This document shows positions 23,322-30,113 of a DNA stretch of 64,000 bases, in pieces (the stretch's first letter is position 1; each line of letters begins with the position of its first letter). The position numbers were made by a program, and so were the translations under genes. The notes under the pieces were generated by a model that had not been told where the DNA came from, ran no database searches, and saw only the letters and a program-made list of their open reading frames with translations. This DNA is from Bordetella genomosp. 5 (GTDB lineage Bacteria > Pseudomonadota > Gammaproteobacteria > Burkholderiales > Burkholderiaceae_B), in assembly GCF_002261475.1 (NCBI RefSeq), contig NZ_NEVN01000002.1, forward strand, positions 248,001-312,000. Direction: 5' to 3'.

Positions 23322-25085
23322 TCAGCCCGCGGCCCAGGAGTCTTTCAGCGTGACGATGCGGTTCAGGACCGGGGCGCCGGGGCGCGAGTCCTTGGCGTCG
23401 ACGGTGAAGTAACCCAGCCGCTCGAATTGCCAGGTCGCGCCGGGTTCGGTCGCGATGTTGGGTTCGAGCCAGGCCTGGACGGTCTGCTTGGAGTTGGGGT
23501 TCAGGGCGGCCAGGAAGTCCTTGTCGCCGGCATCGGGATGCGGATCGGCGAACAGGCGGTCGTAGAGCTGGACCTGTGCCGGCACGGCGTGCGCCGCGCT
23601 GACCCAGGTGATGTTGCCCTTGACCTTGACGCTGTCGGCACCCGGCGTGCCGCTCTTTGTGTCGGGCAGATACTCGGCCTGCACCTCGACCACTTCGCCG
23701 GCGTCGTTCTTGGTGAAGCCGGTGCAGCGGACCACGTAGCCGTACTTCAGGCGCACGGTGTTGCCGGGGAACAGGCGGAAGTACTTCTTGGGCGGCTCCT
23801 CGCGGAAGTCGTCGCGTTCGATCCAGAGCTCGCGCGAGAACGGGAACTCGCGCACGCCCGCTTCCGGATCGTGCGGGTTGCGCGGCGCCGTGCACGATTC
23901 CGTCTGCCCCTCGGGGTAATTGGTGATGACGAGCTTGATCGGATCGAGCACTGCCACCGAGCGCGGCGTGCCGGGATCGAGGTCGTCGCGCACGGCCTGC
24001 TCGAGCAGGCTGTAGTCGATGCGCGAGTCCGACTTCGACACCGCGGTGCGGTCGCAGAACAGGCGGATCGACGAGGCCGTGTAGCCGCGGCGGCGCAGGC
24101 CGAACAGCGTGGGCATGCGCGGATCGTCCCAGCCATCGACGTGGCCGTCGCGCACCAGCTGCAGCAGCTTGCGCTTGCTGGTGACGATGTAGGTCAGGTT
24201 CAGGCGCGCGAATTCGTATTGGCGCGGCAGCGGCTGGGCCAGCTTGCCCAGCTCGGCCAGGCGCGCCAGGATCCAGTCGTAGAACGGACGCTGGTCTTCG
24301 AACTCCAGCGTGCAGATGCTGTGGGTGATGCCTTCGAGCGCATCCTCGACCGGGTGGGCCCAGCTATACATCGGGTAGATGCACCACTGATTGCCGGTGC
24401 GATGGTGTGTGGCGTGGCGCACGCGATACATGACCGGATCGCGCAGATTGATGTTGGGCGAGCCCATGTCGATCTTGGCGCGCAGCACCAGGCTGCCGTC
24501 GGGATGCTTGCCGTCGCGCATCTCGCGCAGCAGGGCGATCGATTCGGCCGGCGCGCGGTCACGCCAGGGCGAGTTGGTGCCCGGTTCGGTCAGGGTGCCG
24601 CGCTGGGCGCGGATCTCGTCGGCGCTCTGGGCATCGACGTAGGCGTGGCCGGCCTCGACCAGCGCTTCGGCAAACTCGTACATGTAGCCGAAGTAGTCGC
24701 TGGCGAAATACAGATTGTCGCGGCCATCGGCCTTCCAGTCGAAGCCGAGCCAGTGCACGGCCTCTTCGATGGCATCGACGTACTCCTGATCTTCCTTTTC
24801 GGGATTGGTGTCGTCGAAGCGCAGGTGGCAGACGCCGCCGTACTCCTTGGCCAGACCGAAGTTCACGCAGATGCTCTTGGCGTGACCGATGTGCAGGTAG
24901 CCATTGGGCTCGGGCGGGAAGCGGGTGCGGATACGGGCAGGGTCGGGTTCGCCCGCCGTCTGCACGCTGGCCGGGCCGGGCCGGCCGGCCCAGCGCTTGC
25001 CCTGGAAGCGGTTCGATTCCAGGTCTTCGTCGATGATGTTGCGCAGATAATTGCTGGCGGCAGGCGGCGTCGGGGCGTGGGTCAT
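23322..25085 (-). CDS. glnS: Glutaminyl-tRNA synthetase
   Basis: 587-residue class I aminoacyl-tRNA synthetase charging tRNA-Gln. The HIGH motif is in PNGYLHIGHAKS near residue 60, the KMSKS equivalent is VTSKRKL, and WDDPRMPTLFGLRRRGYT is GlnRS-specific. The C-terminal beta-barrel anticodon-binding domains follow from about residue 370. About 30 residues longer than E. coli GlnS, mainly at the N-terminus. Stands alone, divergent from the cyd-like pair with 116 bases between. Confidence 0.97.
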   Translation of the reverse strand: MTHAPTPPAASNYLRNIIDEDLESNRFQGKRWAGRPGPASVQTAGEPDPARIRTRFPPEPNGYLHIGHAKSICVNFGLAKEYGGVCHLRFDDTNPEKEDQEYVDAIEEAVHWLGFDWKADGRDNLYFASDYFGYMYEFAEALVEAGHAYVDAQSADEIRAQRGTLTEPGTNSPWRDRAPAESIALLREMRDGKHPDGSLVLRAKIDMGSPNINLRDPVMYRVRHATHHRTGNQWCIYPMYSWAHPVEDALEGITHSICTLEFEDQRPFYDWILARLAELGKLAQPLPRQYEFARLNLTYIVTSKRKLLQLVRDGHVDGWDDPRMPTLFGLRRRGYTASSIRLFCDRTAVSKSDSRIDYSLLEQAVRDDLDPGTPRSVAVLDPIKLVITNYPEGQTESCTAPRNPHDPEAGVREFPFSRELWIERDDFREEPPKKYFRLFPGNTVRLKYGYVVRCTGFTKNDAGEVVEVQAEYLPDTKSGTPGADSVKVKGNITWVSAAHAVPAQVQLYDRLFADPHPDAGDKDFLAALNPNSKQTVQAWLEPNIATEPGATWQFERLGYFTVDAKDSRPGAPVLNRIVTLKDSWAAG

Positions 25086-25201: not shown

Positions 25202-26542
25202 ATGAATATCGCCCCTCTCCTGCTGGCCCGAACCCAGTTCATGACCAGCCTGAGCTTCCTGGCCCTGTTCCTGGCCATTTCCCTGGCATTGGCCTGGTTT
25301 CTACTCTTTTTCAAGCTCCGGGCGCGCGTCAGCGGCCTCGCCGGCTGGACCGCCGCCTATCGGCTCTGGGTGCGGATATTCGCGCTGTCCTTCGTGCTCG
25401 CACTGGCGTTCGCCGTGCCGGTGCTGGTCCAGCTGGGCAGTCTCTGGCCCGGCCTGATGGACAAAATCGGCAATGTGGCCGGACCCCTGGTCGGCTTCGG
25501 CGTGCTGTCGGTCTTCGTGCTGAAGTCGTGTTTCCTGGGCGTCATGCTGTTCGGCCAGCGCCGGGTCTCCGATCTGGCGCACACCTTCGCCGTGTTCATG
25601 GTCGCCATCGGGCAGCTCGTGGCGCTGGGCTGGGTGCTGGCGCTGCAATCCTGGATGCAGACCCCCGACGGCGCGGCCCTGATCGACGGGCGTTATCAGG
25701 TCTACGACTGGCTCGAGGTGATCTTCAACCCCTCGTTCGGCTGGCGCATGGGCGCCACTGCGGTGGGCGCCGCGCTGGCGGCCGCCTTCCTGATGCTCGG
25801 CGTGCACGCCCTCCAGGCCCTGCGCCGGCCGCTCGACGACGGCGAGCGCAACGCGTTCAAGGCGGCCGTCGTGGTCGCGCTCGTGGCCTCGATCCTGCAA
25901 CTGCCGGTGGCGCTGGGCCTGCGCGACCTGACCGTGCGGCACCAGCCGGCCAAGGCGGCCGCGCTGGCCGGCTACTGGCACAGCGGCGGCAAGCCCGAAA
26001 TCACGATCTGGGGCTGGCCCGACGCGCAAAGCCAGTCGACCGCCGGTGCCTGGACCCTGCAGAACACCGGCGCGCGCTGGCTGGCGCGCGATCCCAATGG
26101 CATCTACATCGGGCTCGACAAATACTCCGGCATGCAGCCGCCCGTGGCGATGGTGTTCTGGTCGCTGCGCCTGGCCATCGTGCTGGGCGTCCTCATGGTG
26201 ATCGCCGCGCTCGTGAGCTTCATCGGCACGGCCCGGCGCGGCTTCGATCCCGCCGTCATGCCGCGCTGGTGGCTGCGCTTCCAGAGCGGCATGATGTTCG
26301 CCGGCGGTCTGGCCGTCATGGCGTCGTGGTGGGTCAGCCAGCTCGGCCTGCAGCCCTATATGGTCAACCGCACCATCACGCAGTCCGAGGTCCTGAGTCC
26401 GGCCACACCGGCCACGCTGGGCTATGGCGTGGCGGCGTGGGGGCTGCTCTATCTGATTTTGCTGGGCGCCTTTGTCGGCATGCTGTTTCATGCGGCGCGC
26501 TACGGCGTCGTGCCGGTGCGCAAGACGGGAGGTACGCCATGA
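25202..26542 (+). CDS. CydA-like protein (cytochrome bd subunit I family) lacking heme ligands
   Basis: 446-residue membrane protein aligning by eye along its whole length with cytochrome bd subunit I: LARTQF at residues 9-14, WMQTPDG, the short Q-loop region ending TIWGWPD, and the last helices. Against E. coli CydA the heme ligands are all replaced: His19 by Leu20, His186 by Ala, Met393 by Ala and Glu445 by Phe. The proton-path Glu99 and Glu107 appear as Phe and Lys, and Q-loop Glu257 as Ala, while Lys252 and His126 positions are kept. The protein may not be a terminal oxidase. No clear ribosome-binding site. Overlaps the cydB-like gene by ATGA. Confidence 0.85.
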   Translation: MNIAPLLLARTQFMTSLSFLALFLAISLALAWFLLFFKLRARVSGLAGWTAAYRLWVRIFALSFVLALAFAVPVLVQLGSLWPGLMDKIGNVAGPLVGFGVLSVFVLKSCFLGVMLFGQRRVSDLAHTFAVFMVAIGQLVALGWVLALQSWMQTPDGAALIDGRYQVYDWLEVIFNPSFGWRMGATAVGAALAAAFLMLGVHALQALRRPLDDGERNAFKAAVVVALVASILQLPVALGLRDLTVRHQPAKAAALAGYWHSGGKPEITIWGWPDAQSQSTAGAWTLQNTGARWLARDPNGIYIGLDKYSGMQPPVAMVFWSLRLAIVLGVLMVIAALVSFIGTARRGFDPAVMPRWWLRFQSGMMFAGGLAVMASWWVSQLGLQPYMVNRTITQSEVLSPATPATLGYGVAAWGLLYLILLGAFVGMLFHAARYGVVPVRKTGGTP

Positions 26543-27597
26543 TCGCCACCTTGGCCGCGTCGCTGGGCCTGGCCCCCGACGATCCGATGTTCTGGATGCC
26601 GATGGTGTTCATGGCATTGCTGTTGCTGCTGATCGCCGCCGGTATCGTGTTCGACGGCTTCGATCTGGGCGTGGGCATCCTGCTGCAGATCGCGCCGGCC
26701 GACGAGCGCGGCCGCATGATGGGCCTGTTGTCGCCCTGGCGCGATGCCAACGAGTTCTGGCCTTTGCTGGGCATGGGGCTGTTCGCCTCCGCGTTCCCGT
26801 TTGCCTGGGGCACCATCACCGGCAAGCTGGTCGGGCCGCTGATCGTGCTGACCTTGGGCATCGTGCTGCGCAGCGTGGCGTTCGAGTTCCGCATCCGCGC
26901 CCGTCACGAGCACAAGCCGCGCTGGATCTTCGGCTTCTGGATCGGATCGCTCCTGACCGCGATCGGGCAGGGGATGGTGCTCGGCCGTATCGCCACCGAC
27001 TACCAGAGCGACGCCGGCTATGGCTGGTTCTCGCTGTTCGTGGGGTTGTGCGCCGTGGCCGCGTATGCGCTGTTGGGTGCCTGCTGGCTCGTGATGCGGG
27101 TCGACGGCGATCTGCAGCGCCGTGCCGCCAACTGGGCGCGCCACTCGATCCGCTGGACGGCCGCGGGCATGGTGGCCATCGCGGTCACGCTCGGCCTGGC
27201 CAATGCCGGCATCTTCTTCAAGTGGAGCAACGCCGCGCATCTGGGCGCGGCCGCGGCGGTCTGGGCCTGCATGCTGCTCTGCTTCGTCTGCGCCGAGGTG
27301 TTCCTGGCGCGCGTGCGGACCAAGCCCGACAGCTTCAGCTGGATGCCGTTCGTGCTGTGCGTGGTGCTCTATGTGCTGATGCTGCTGGGGCTGGCGTACA
27401 GCTTCTTCCCGTATCTGATCCTCGACGACATGACCATCTGGGACGGCAGCGGCGCGCTGGGGTCCATGCGCCTGGTGCTGGCCGGCGTGGTGGTCGGTGT
27501 GCCGGTGGTGCTGATCTTCAATCTGCTTGCCTATCGCTCGGTGTTCGGCAAGGAGCGCCGCCCGGTGGCGCTGCTGCCGCCGCCTTCCGCCTCCTGA
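26539..27597 (+). CDS. CydB-like protein (cytochrome bd subunit II family)
   Basis: 352-residue protein with about eight to nine transmembrane segments. FDGFDLGVGIL near residue 37 and PWRDANEFWP near residue 70 correspond to the DGFDMGVG and WDGNQVW motifs of E. coli CydB, and DDMTIWDGSGALGSM to its periplasmic C-terminal loop. Start fixed by the ATGA overlap with the cydA-like stop. No CydX-like small ORF follows and no cydDC genes are in the window. With its partner it forms a two-subunit complex of unknown redox role. Confidence 0.87.
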   Translation: MIATLAASLGLAPDDPMFWMPMVFMALLLLLIAAGIVFDGFDLGVGILLQIAPADERGRMMGLLSPWRDANEFWPLLGMGLFASAFPFAWGTITGKLVGPLIVLTLGIVLRSVAFEFRIRARHEHKPRWIFGFWIGSLLTAIGQGMVLGRIATDYQSDAGYGWFSLFVGLCAVAAYALLGACWLVMRVDGDLQRRAANWARHSIRWTAAGMVAIAVTLGLANAGIFFKWSNAAHLGAAAAVWACMLLCFVCAEVFLARVRTKPDSFSWMPFVLCVVLYVLMLLGLAYSFFPYLILDDMTIWDGSGALGSMRLVLAGVVVGVPVVLIFNLLAYRSVFGKERRPVALLPPPSAS

Positions 27598-27633
27598 CGG
27601 GCGCGGCGGGACGGGATTCGCCGCAACACGAAA

Positions 27634-27657
27634 CAGGCCGCCCCTCGGGGCGGCCTG
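27634..27657. terminator. Hairpin between convergent cydB-like and histidine kinase genes
   Basis: CAGGCCGCCCC-TC-GGGGCGGCCTG, 11-bp perfect stem. A short T-rich stretch follows only on the minus strand, so it fits best as the end of the two-component operon, with possible action both ways. Confidence 0.6.
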
Positions 27658-27680
27658 CGTCATTTCGAGAAGGCGTTGGA

Positions 27681-29198
27681 TCAGGCTTGGGCGAGGGGCA
27701 GGCGGATGCGTACCAGCAGGCCGCCGCCCGTGTGATCGCCGAGCTCCAGTGTGCCGCCGTGGGCCCGCGCGATCGCGTCGGCCAGCGCCAGCCCCAGGCC
27801 CACATTGCCGGTGCGCGTGCGCGCGTCGTCGAGACGGGCGAAGGGCCGCAAGGCCTCGCTGCGGCGTTCCGGGCTGATGCCCGTGCCATGATCGCCCACT
27901 TCGAGCACGGCGTGGCTGCCGTCCTGGCTCAGGCTGACGTCGATGGGCGCGGCGCCGTGATGCAGCGCATTGCCGATCAGATTGTCGAGCAGGCGGCCCA
28001 GCGCCACCGCATCGCCCTGGATGTGCAGATTGGCGTCTTCGGGCGTGCGCAGGGTGACGGCGGTGTTGGTGCTCTGCCATGCGCCCACGCGGTCATGGAT
28101 CCAGTCGTTCAGGTCCAGCGGCGCGTAGCGGTAGGCGGCCGGATCGGTGCCCCGCACGAAGCCGATGAATTGATCGACCATGTGCTGCATGTCCTGCAGG
28201 TCTTTGCGCAGGCCTTCCTTGAGCACGGAGTCGTCGGCCATCTCGATGCGCAGCCACATGCGCGAGAGCGGCCCCTTCAGATCGTGCGGCAGGCCGGAGA
28301 GCAGGGTGCGGCGCACGGAGTCGGATTCGGCCAGCGCGTCGAGCATGGCATTGAAGCGCTCGCCCAGCGCGCGCGTCTCGTGCGGACCCGACGGCTCCAC
28401 GCGCTGCGGCTGCCCGGCGGCGAGCTGGTCGGCGGCCTGCGCCAGCCGCGTGAGCGGACGCGTGATGTGCCACGAGAAGCCCGCCGCCAGCAACAGCACC
28501 AGCCCCAGGCCGCCCAGCCAGAACGCCACCAGCGGCGACGAGACGGGCGGGTCCAGGCGCTCCAGCGGAATCACCAGCCATTCGCGCAGCAGCGGCGCGT
28601 CTTCGCTCGCCGGATTGGGCGCGAGCGAGATATAGATTTCGGCGCGCGGACCGCGCGAGAGCGCCACGCGCGTGCCGTCGTTCAGGCGGATGTTGAGCTC
28701 GCGCACCAGCCCGCGCAGATCGCGGCGCACGTCGTCGGGCTCGCCGTGAGGGTAGCGCGCGCGGCGCTGCGCCTCCATCTTGCGATAGGCCTCCATGCGC
28801 TGTTCGCGGTCGGCCGGGTCTTCGAACTCGTCTTCGCGCGGCTGCGGCGGGGGCGGCGGCGGCATGGCGTTGGGCATGAACCGATCGGCCGGCGGCAGAT
28901 TGAGGCGCTGCAGGCGCGCCTCGGCGGGCAGCATGCGCGACCACAGACGCCATTGGTTCTGCGAGGCGGCACGGACGAAGTCAGCGCGGTCTTCGGCCGG
29001 CACCTGGGCCAGGGCCGCGCGCAGCGTGCGGATCGTGGTGGCGATGTAGCCGATCGCCACCTCTTCCATGAACTTCTGGCGGAAGTACGACACGGTGCCC
29101 AGCGTGGCGGCCTGCGCCAGCAGTACCGAGCCCAGCACGAGCAGGATGAGCCTGACGCGCAGCGAGTGCGGCATCAGTCGGCCGAAAGGCAGCTTCAT
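27681..29198 (-). CDS. Sensor histidine kinase of an OmpR-class two-component system
   Basis: 505-residue inner-membrane kinase. First transmembrane helix at about residues 15-37, a periplasmic domain of roughly 190 residues with a PPPPPP run near residue 115 and an Arg/Glu-rich stretch, a second helix near 225-245, then HAMP, H-box and ATPase domains. The H-box reads LPHDLKGPLSR rather than SHELRTPL. N-box LDNLIGNALHHG, G1 VGDHGTGI and G2 NVGLGLALADAI are intact. It overlaps the regulator gene by four bases. RisS/EnvZ-like in architecture; the signal is unknown. Confidence 0.9.
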   Translation of the reverse strand: MKLPFGRLMPHSLRVRLILLVLGSVLLAQAATLGTVSYFRQKFMEEVAIGYIATTIRTLRAALAQVPAEDRADFVRAASQNQWRLWSRMLPAEARLQRLNLPPADRFMPNAMPPPPPPQPREDEFEDPADREQRMEAYRKMEAQRRARYPHGEPDDVRRDLRGLVRELNIRLNDGTRVALSRGPRAEIYISLAPNPASEDAPLLREWLVIPLERLDPPVSSPLVAFWLGGLGLVLLLAAGFSWHITRPLTRLAQAADQLAAGQPQRVEPSGPHETRALGERFNAMLDALAESDSVRRTLLSGLPHDLKGPLSRMWLRIEMADDSVLKEGLRKDLQDMQHMVDQFIGFVRGTDPAAYRYAPLDLNDWIHDRVGAWQSTNTAVTLRTPEDANLHIQGDAVALGRLLDNLIGNALHHGAAPIDVSLSQDGSHAVLEVGDHGTGISPERRSEALRPFARLDDARTRTGNVGLGLALADAIARAHGGTLELGDHTGGGLLVRIRLPLAQA

Positions 29199-29896
29199 GG
29201 CGCGAAGCGGTAGCCGATGCCCCAGACGGTCTGGATCCAGCGGGGTTGTTTGGGATCTTCTTCGATGGCGCGCCGCAGCCGCAGGATCGCGATGTCGATG
29301 GCGCGGTCATTGCGCTCGCCGCTGTCGTCGTCGCGCGCCAGGGCCAGCAGACGCTCGCGCGACAGCGGCTTGCCCGCGTTGCGCACCAGCGCTTCGAGCA
29401 GGTTGATCTCGCCGCCGGTGAGCTTGACCACGACGCCTTCGCGCATCAACTGGCGCGTGGTCGGATCGAACACGAAGGGGCCGAAGGACACCGGCGCGTC
29501 TTTCGTGAGCGCGGAGGGGCCGCGCTTGCGTCGCAGCACGGCCTCGATGCGGGCGAGCAGCTCGCGCGGATCGAAGGGCTTGCCGAGGTAGTCGTCTGCG
29601 CCGGCCTCGAGACCGATGATGCGGTCCACGGCCTCGTCGCGCGCGGTCAGCAGGATGACGGGCAGGTCCTCGCCCTGTTCGCGCAGGCGGCGACAGGCAT
29701 CGGCGCCATCGCCACCGGGAAGCATGCGGTCGAGCACCAGGAGATCGGGCGCATAGCGCGTGATGCGGGCGGCCAGATCGCTGGCATCGGGCGCGAGCAG
29801 CGTGTCGTAGCCGTGGCGATTGAGGTAATCGGCCAGCAATTGGCGCAGGGCGGGGTCATCGTCGACCACCAACAGCTTGGTATGCGGATTTTCCAT
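29195..29896 (-). CDS. OmpR-family response regulator
   Basis: 233-residue regulator: receiver domain with DDD at about residues 11-13, phosphoacceptor Asp in LVLDRMLPG near 56, Thr in LLTARDE and Lys in GKPFDP; C-terminal winged-helix domain ending QTVWGIGYRFAP. ATG 29896 is chosen because MENPHTKLLVVDDD is the natural receiver start; the open frame extends 12 codons further. First gene of the pair with the downstream kinase, stop overlapping its ATG. Possibly the RisA-type regulator of this family, but targets cannot be read from the window. Confidence 0.92.
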   Translation of the reverse strand: MENPHTKLLVVDDDPALRQLLADYLNRHGYDTLLAPDASDLAARITRYAPDLLVLDRMLPGGDGADACRRLREQGEDLPVILLTARDEAVDRIIGLEAGADDYLGKPFDPRELLARIEAVLRRKRGPSALTKDAPVSFGPFVFDPTTRQLMREGVVVKLTGGEINLLEALVRNAGKPLSRERLLALARDDDSGERNDRAIDIAILRLRRAIEEDPKQPRWIQTVWGIGYRFAP

Positions 29897-30113
29897 GGGT
29901 GCCAGTGTGGTGCCCGGGCTGTTTGCGGGCAAGGGGCAAGAAATCGATTGAAAAATATAACCGTTGCAACTCGCCCGCGCTGGCGGCGGGCGCCTGAGCT
30001 TAGAATAGCCGGCTCGCGCCGCGGCCCCCGCGATCCTGGCGAGACCTCCCGTGGTGTTTTTTTAAGATCGTTTACAGATGTGCCGTCCCGGACTTTTTAA
30101 ACTGGTTCGCGTT

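Follow-up and report, generated by a model that had tools for sequence, protein, structure and literature searches.

The window analysed here, a 64,000-nucleotide stretch of Bordetella genomosp. 5 (contig NZ_NEVN01000002.1, positions 248,001 to 312,000 of the forward strand), encodes a CydA-like and a CydB-like protein in adjacent genes, and the CydA-like protein, which belongs to a clade in the Alcaligenaceae, lacks all residues known to hold the hemes of cytochrome bd oxidases. The pair belongs to the CydA and CydB families by descent and fold, yet it does not qualify as a cytochrome bd in the sense of an enzyme. We give a probability of about 0.7 to the reading, drawn from sequence comparison, that it forms a membrane heterodimer which derives from a canonical CIO-like cytochrome bd but is no oxidase and probably contains no heme. 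Because all known heme-holding residues are gone and yet the pair is kept intact in relatives, it most likely does a different job from that of the oxygen-consuming respiratory enzyme under whose name databases list it. The ligands, the Q-loop glutamate and the proton-donor residues have disappeared, whereas the fold, the interface charges and the gene pair have been retained under selection.

The identity of the pair was confirmed by the open reading frames, by the Pfam profiles (PF01654 with 324 bits for the CydA-like protein, PF02322 with 195 bits for the CydB-like protein) and by fold comparisons, in which the CydA-like protein is confidently a CydA with its fold kept intact. These comparisons gave aligned ranges, and the assignment of ligand positions rests on the sequence alignments. 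With phmmer, the protein aligns with the solved CydA chains (7ose and 6rko) across most of its length, and the AlphaFold2 model of the CydB-like protein has a pLDDT of 87.5. The NCBIfam models for bd-I and bd-II hit the CydA-like protein below cut-off, which carries little weight for a CIO-like protein. The CydB partner is encoded alongside, and the two genes share a 4-base ATGA overlap that is found in 95 of the 101 clade loci. The CydB motifs DGFDLGVG and WRDAN are present, although WRDAN is itself a changed motif, the residue at E. coli Trp57 being Arg in 97% of 38 non-redundant clade CydB sequences. The short Q-loop (446 residues in all, with the long Q-loop stretch of E. coli gapped) and the neighbours in the tree, L106 and L113, point to the CIO subtype. 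This placement covers descent; the features expected of oxidase function (ligands, oxygen site, Q-loop Glu) are absent.

The ligand and catalytic positions were read from two separate alignments, phmmer against 7ose/6rko and MAFFT, which agreed with each other, and the codons were checked (Table 1); the E. coli ligand assignments (His19, His186, Met393 and Glu445) follow PMC8324918 (in part). The heme b558 ligands His186 and Met393 are replaced by Ala185 and Ala325, and the heme d and b595 ligands His19 and Glu445 by Leu20 and Gln380, although a side branch of the clade retains the latter two. Glu99 and Glu107, of the oxygen site and proton path, have become Gly100 and Lys108; residue roles, including that of Glu107 as proposed terminal proton donor in E. 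coli, were taken from parts of PMC13189123 and PMC8324918. In the Q-loop, Lys252 is retained as Lys251 but Glu257 is Ala256, and in both alignments Arg448 has become Leu383.

The sequence-only reading of this DNA had claimed that CydA lacks its canonical heme ligands, and this holds in both alignments and across the clade. Among the seven residue letters that it gave, five (Leu20, Ala, Ala, Lys and Ala) were right. The Phe placed at Glu99 was off by one, as Phe99 aligns with residue 98 and the Glu99 position is Gly100, and the Phe placed at Glu445 was the wrong letter for Gln380; these two errors leave its conclusion unchanged. The arginine before the Met393 position is kept as it had said (Arg323 at Arg391), and so are the landmarks around the ligand positions. 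We considered an alignment error and rejected it, given the concordance of phmmer and MAFFT and the sequence landmarks retained near the ligand positions. Chance or sequencing error was also rejected, because the loss of His186, Glu99 and Glu257 and the Lys or Arg at the Glu107 position run through all 274 distinct clade members.

A first set of 295 distinct CydA-type sequences contained 84 with all four ligands, 186 with none and 25 mixed, and its Glu107 column holds Lys or Arg in 210 sequences and Glu in the other 85. The 274-member set consists of the clade from this first set, four loci (two of them partial) and 60 proteins obtained with a side-branch query. Both protein searches listed the best 120 matches, and the clade counts depend on the sequences fetched, which are rich in close relatives. 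His186, Glu99 and Glu257 occur in none of the 274 members, and the Glu107 position is Lys in 272, Arg in 2 and Glu in none. His19 is retained in 57 (the 11 of these placed in the tree all fall within the side group) and Met393 in 19, while residue 445 is Glu in 31 and Asp in another 31, that is, 62 together. All four ligands are absent in 188 members. Arg391 is kept in 272, the remaining 2 being gapped.

Across the clade, the residues of the hemes, the quinol site and the oxygen site are lost and most proton-wire residues are changed. Canonical CydA has 37 columns with conservation of 90% or more that are kept in below 30% of the clade; there the replacements are mostly small or aliphatic and the summed volume has barely changed. 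The charged residues lining the E. coli proton wire at the interface of the two subunits are retained as charged; in the 38 CydB sequences Asp58 is kept in 95%, and Asp105 has become Glu and Lys109 Arg in 100%. Cys110 of CydA, near the former heme d site, is conserved in 92% of 78 non-redundant members. Searches of sampled genomes outside the family, whose listings stopped at an E-value of 1e-70 so that distant ligand-less forms could escape them, found no ligand-less form among 49 loci and five more, all of which keep Glu107. All ten positions read are kept in 48 of the 49, and the other one (L205) has Pro at His186, probably through a one-residue register shift.

In a tree of 79 rows, the split between the 53 clade rows and the 26 canonical ones has a support of 100/100 and the stem measures 0.77; the Alcaligenaceae clade thus stands apart, with canonical CIO-like bd as the group that it joins. 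The nearest canonical relatives, L106 and L113 (41 and 39% identity), come from the same family. Both are canonical CIO-like CydA copies in genomes that also hold the ligand-less pair. In a 49-row tree the fully ligand-less rows form one group (99/95), and ten rows that retain His19 and/or residue 445 form a weak one (82/44), in which L109 and P0180 have themselves lost His19. The side branch comprises L080, L095, L110, L208, P0095, P0106, P0107, P0114 and most of P0121-P0180, mostly with His19 and with Glu or Asp at 445 and without the b558 ligand His186; a Jezberella protein in it (P0176) lacks His19 itself. A reduced-heme bd-like protein is predicted for this branch.

Because the side branch keeps His19 and Glu/Asp445, heme b558 and the quinol site were probably lost first. 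In the simplest history, the clade ancestor would already have been without b558, the quinol site and Glu99/Glu107 but with His19 and Glu445, and the window's branch would have lost these two later. Met393 is present in 19 members and therefore must have been lost more than once or regained. On balance we favour a vertically inherited bd branch across the Alcaligenaceae, Bordetella and Achromobacter included, that turned into a cofactor-free, non-respiratory heterodimer by stepwise loss, of b558, the quinol site and the proton donor and then of b595 and d.

Both genes are under purifying selection. The ratio of nonsynonymous to synonymous substitution rates (dN/dS) was computed for 25 pairs, one formed by the window's genes and those of L034 and the other 24 picked randomly among 462 pairs at 80-97% identity, and the median was 0.12 (0.05-0.23) for the cydA-like gene and 0.059 (0.02-0.14) for the cydB-like gene. 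Two more distant comparisons gave 0.28 and 0.30 for the cydA-like gene. In one species pair the values were 0.229 for the cydA-like gene, 0.062 for the cydB-like gene, 0.078 for glnS, 0.155 for the kinase, 0.073 for the regulator and 0.042 for canonical cydA. In that species pair, the CydB-like protein is as constrained as a tRNA synthetase, and the CydA-like protein is freer than a working CydA yet far from neutral.

The window's genome contains one other PF01654 CydA, which the tree places with the canonical ones, and 3 kb beyond it lies a CydC over cut-off. A PF01654 search of 20 chosen family genomes found another match in 16, two of them as fragments only. In the other four, G006, G042, G128 and G194 (completeness 99, 99, 99 and 97%), the clade CydA is the sole match; it is fully ligand-less in the first three and keeps His19 and Glu445 in G194. 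CydC is required for the assembly of heme into cytochrome bd. It was over cut-off in all six tested genomes with a canonical CydA and in none of these four without one, a pattern that fits a complex with no need for bd assembly, although CydC may simply have left together with the canonical oxidase. The earlier proposal of a heme-poor or heme-free complex, derived from cytochrome bd and serving another role, gains support because the clade is separate, the residues are lost, selection is purifying and the pair persists without a canonical CydA or a CydC over cut-off; the heme-free state and the other role themselves are what we infer from this.

The two proteins would thus form a membrane heterodimer of CIO-like ancestry that should bind neither heme b558 nor b595 nor d and would not oxidise quinol, reduce O2 or deliver protons to heme. 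The former proton wire may have become a static salt-bridge network, in which Arg54, Arg58 and Lys108 of CydA would meet Arg68, Asp69, Glu116 and Arg120 of CydB. More speculatively, the empty heme track might be filled by side chains and a quinone or lipid, and the pair might then have a non-catalytic role in the membrane, in binding, in regulation or as a scaffold. We offer this last part tentatively, as a possibility suggested by analogy with E. coli CydB, where ubiquinone-8 occupies the heme track in place of hemes (PMC6853902, in part).

The closest known systems include the CIO-type cytochrome bd (CydAB/CioAB; PF01654/PF02322), with which the pair has in common the fold, the two-gene order, the short Q-loop and the CydB partner, but the window's CydA is without the four heme ligands, Glu99, Glu107 (now Lys), Glu257 and Arg448. 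The archaeal CydAA', reportedly described by Murali et al. in 2021, is said to be a variant of the bd superfamily with an altered subunit I, in which a second CydA-type subunit replaces CydB; in the window, by contrast, the partner is CydB and CydA itself is ligand-less. The E. coli CydB is a heme-free subunit of the same fold (PMC6853902, in part), whereas the CydA-like protein is a CydA by sequence and tree and would have lost heme independently, as the second such case.

A likely counterpart has already been studied as cydAB3 (BB4012-4011) of B. bronchiseptica, listed as a high-affinity bd oxidase by homology (PMC11257404, in part). The published deletion spans 2373 bp, starting 41 nt upstream of cydA3 and ending at nt 994 of cydB3. 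By these figures cydA3 should be about 1341-1342 nt long and overlap cydB3 by 4 bases, as in the window's pair. The two are probably counterparts by this gene-length arithmetic, which is not an alignment; an ortholog from the classical Bordetella was not found among the best 120 protein matches listed. According to the same paper, a strain with cyd3 alone could not be made, the single deletion grows like the wild type, and cyd3 transcripts are low, the authors explaining the failure by low transcription. A failure of cyd3 to support growth is what would be expected of a non-oxidase, although low transcription could explain it equally well. In B. pertussis, according to the same source, 7 of 14 strains carry a disrupted cydB3 and half of the 14 have the locus intact. 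The word "ligand" is absent from the paper's main text, and a ligand-less CydA is not described in the titles and abstract openings of the open-licence papers that were searched.

Several observations weigh against a heme-free non-oxidase. Given the side branch with His19 and Glu/Asp445, the clade's ancestor was probably still a heme binder, and its members might have a function in common. The strongly conserved Lys108, Cys110, His127 and His430 are ligands in principle available, and CydB Asp58 and CydA Arg391 and Lys252, all kept, are part of the old proton/quinol apparatus. The cydA-like gene is less constrained than canonical cydA in the same species pair (0.229 versus 0.042), and the proposed binding or regulatory role comes from analogy alone. 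The conserved residues could be taken to mean that the complex still binds one or more hemes through Lys108, Cys110, His127 or His430 and serves gas sensing or peroxide chemistry without quinol oxidation. A reduced-heme form probably did exist, given the His19 (57 of 274) and Glu/Asp445 (62 of 274) of the side branch, and residue 108 is Lys or Arg in every member with the conserved Cys110 near the former heme d site. However, the window's branch also lacks His19, Glu445 and many other canonical columns, His127 is common to canonical CydA and is not among the ligands named in the relevant part of PMC8324918, and CydC is not over cut-off in the canonical-free genomes, and we consider this unlikely. 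Hardly more probable is that the pair works as partner or regulator in a hetero-complex with canonical bd or another terminal oxidase. The other PF01654 matches in 16 of 20 genomes and the good conservation of the CydB-like protein and the interface charges would agree with it, but an obligatory bd partner was rejected on the evidence of G006, G042 and G128, which hold the fully ligand-less form alone.

Decay of a cytochrome bd operon would account for the cydA-like gene being less constrained than canonical cydA (cydA1), the cydB-like gene, glnS and the neighbouring two-component genes, its 0.229 being the highest of the six values, as well as for an in-frame TAG within the match of one family genome (G138) and for the disrupted cydB3 and low cyd3 transcripts of the Bordetella study (PMC11257404, in part). 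Against this stand the dN/dS of 0.05-0.23 over 25 pairs, the lack of an internal stop in the 31 listed matches of at least 60% identity and in any extracted clade locus, the overlap in 95 of 101 loci and the presence of the pair in about 119 of 200 family genomes. A pseudogene was accordingly rejected as the principal explanation, since reading frame and purifying selection are kept even though constraint on the cydA-like gene is relaxed, and we hold decay to be very improbable. A heme-free quinone-handling anchor resembling the NrfD/ActC-type subunits of alternative complex III has, if anything, still less in its favour, as the common neighbour clusters, named from sequence, include neither an iron-sulfur nor a cytochrome gene, the bd Q-loop Glu257 is lost and the aligned identity is 8-11%.

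If the pair is indeed a non-oxidase, annotations and respiratory-chain models of Bordetella and Achromobacter include as an oxidase a pair that cannot function as one, and the miscount probably includes the "cydAB3" of the published Bordetella respiration study. The clade would also offer a natural series, with intermediates, from oxidase to ligand-less protein on one fold, in which each heme's role and that of the proton path become testable, and the pair would be, after CydB, the second case of the CydA/CydB fold being put to use without heme.

Table 1. Coordinates in the window of the gene pair, the codons at ligand and catalytic positions, and neighbouring features.
Feature	Position	Strand	Remarks
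cydA-like gene	25202..26542	+	ATG start, 446 aa; CydA fold without heme ligands
cydB-like gene	26539..27597	+	ATG start, 352 aa; ATGA overlap with cydA-like gene
Leu20 codon, at E. coli His19 (heme d ligand)	25259..25261	+	alignments and codon
Gly100 codon, at Glu99	25499..25501	+	alignments and codon
Lys108 codon, at Glu107 (proposed terminal proton donor in E. coli)	25523..25525	+	alignments and codon
Ala185 codon, at His186 (heme b558 ligand)	25754..25756	+	alignments and codon
Ala256 codon, at Glu257 (Q-loop)	25967..25969	+	alignments and codon
Arg323 codon, at Arg391, retained	26168..26170	+	codon read
Ala325 codon, at Met393 (heme b558 ligand)	26174..26176	+	alignments and codon
Gln380 codon, at Glu445 (heme b595 ligand)	26339..26341	+	alignments and codon
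glnS, divergent neighbour marking the inherited locus	23322..25085	-	open reading frame; named from sequence and tblastn
Terminator-like hairpin between cydB-like gene and convergent sensor-kinase gene	27633..27658		consensus scan, reported on - strand

The gene glnS lies in the flank of 99 of the 101 clade loci, the other two being short pieces, and of none of the 83 canonical loci, although for many of these the flank covers just 1.5 kb. Where longer flanks were available, in 71 loci, glnS is the divergent neighbour in 64, followed by a minC-like gene in 51 and a minD-like gene in 43. The common neighbour clusters are glnS, minC, minD, a sensor kinase pair, recQ, ruvB and a ClC-like gene, all named from sequence, and the clustering may split families. 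This synteny shows vertical inheritance rather than a pathway. A manual count over the listing of profile scores puts the family genomes with one clade member at about 119 of 200; the count omits places judged canonical, two of which (G171 and G053) score like the weakest clade places, and residues were read in fetched loci only. The CydA-like protein has a match of at least 49% identity in all 15 genus genomes searched, and in two of these (G202 being one) the match is a fragment.

A sensor kinase and a response regulator gene (27681-29932) converge on the pair, and relatives of them lie near it in part of the loci. A functional link to this two-component system was considered and found no support: the kinase cluster is near the pair in 30 and the regulator cluster in 36 of the 71 loci, and the commonest neighbours are glnS, minC and minD. 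The promoter scan at the locus found none, and the hairpin downstream is weakly supported (3 sites in the region versus 1.4, sd 1.3, in shuffles). In 10 of the 71 loci, including L102, L121 and L124, a gene resembling ClC-type chloride channels, as named from its sequence, follows directly after the pair.
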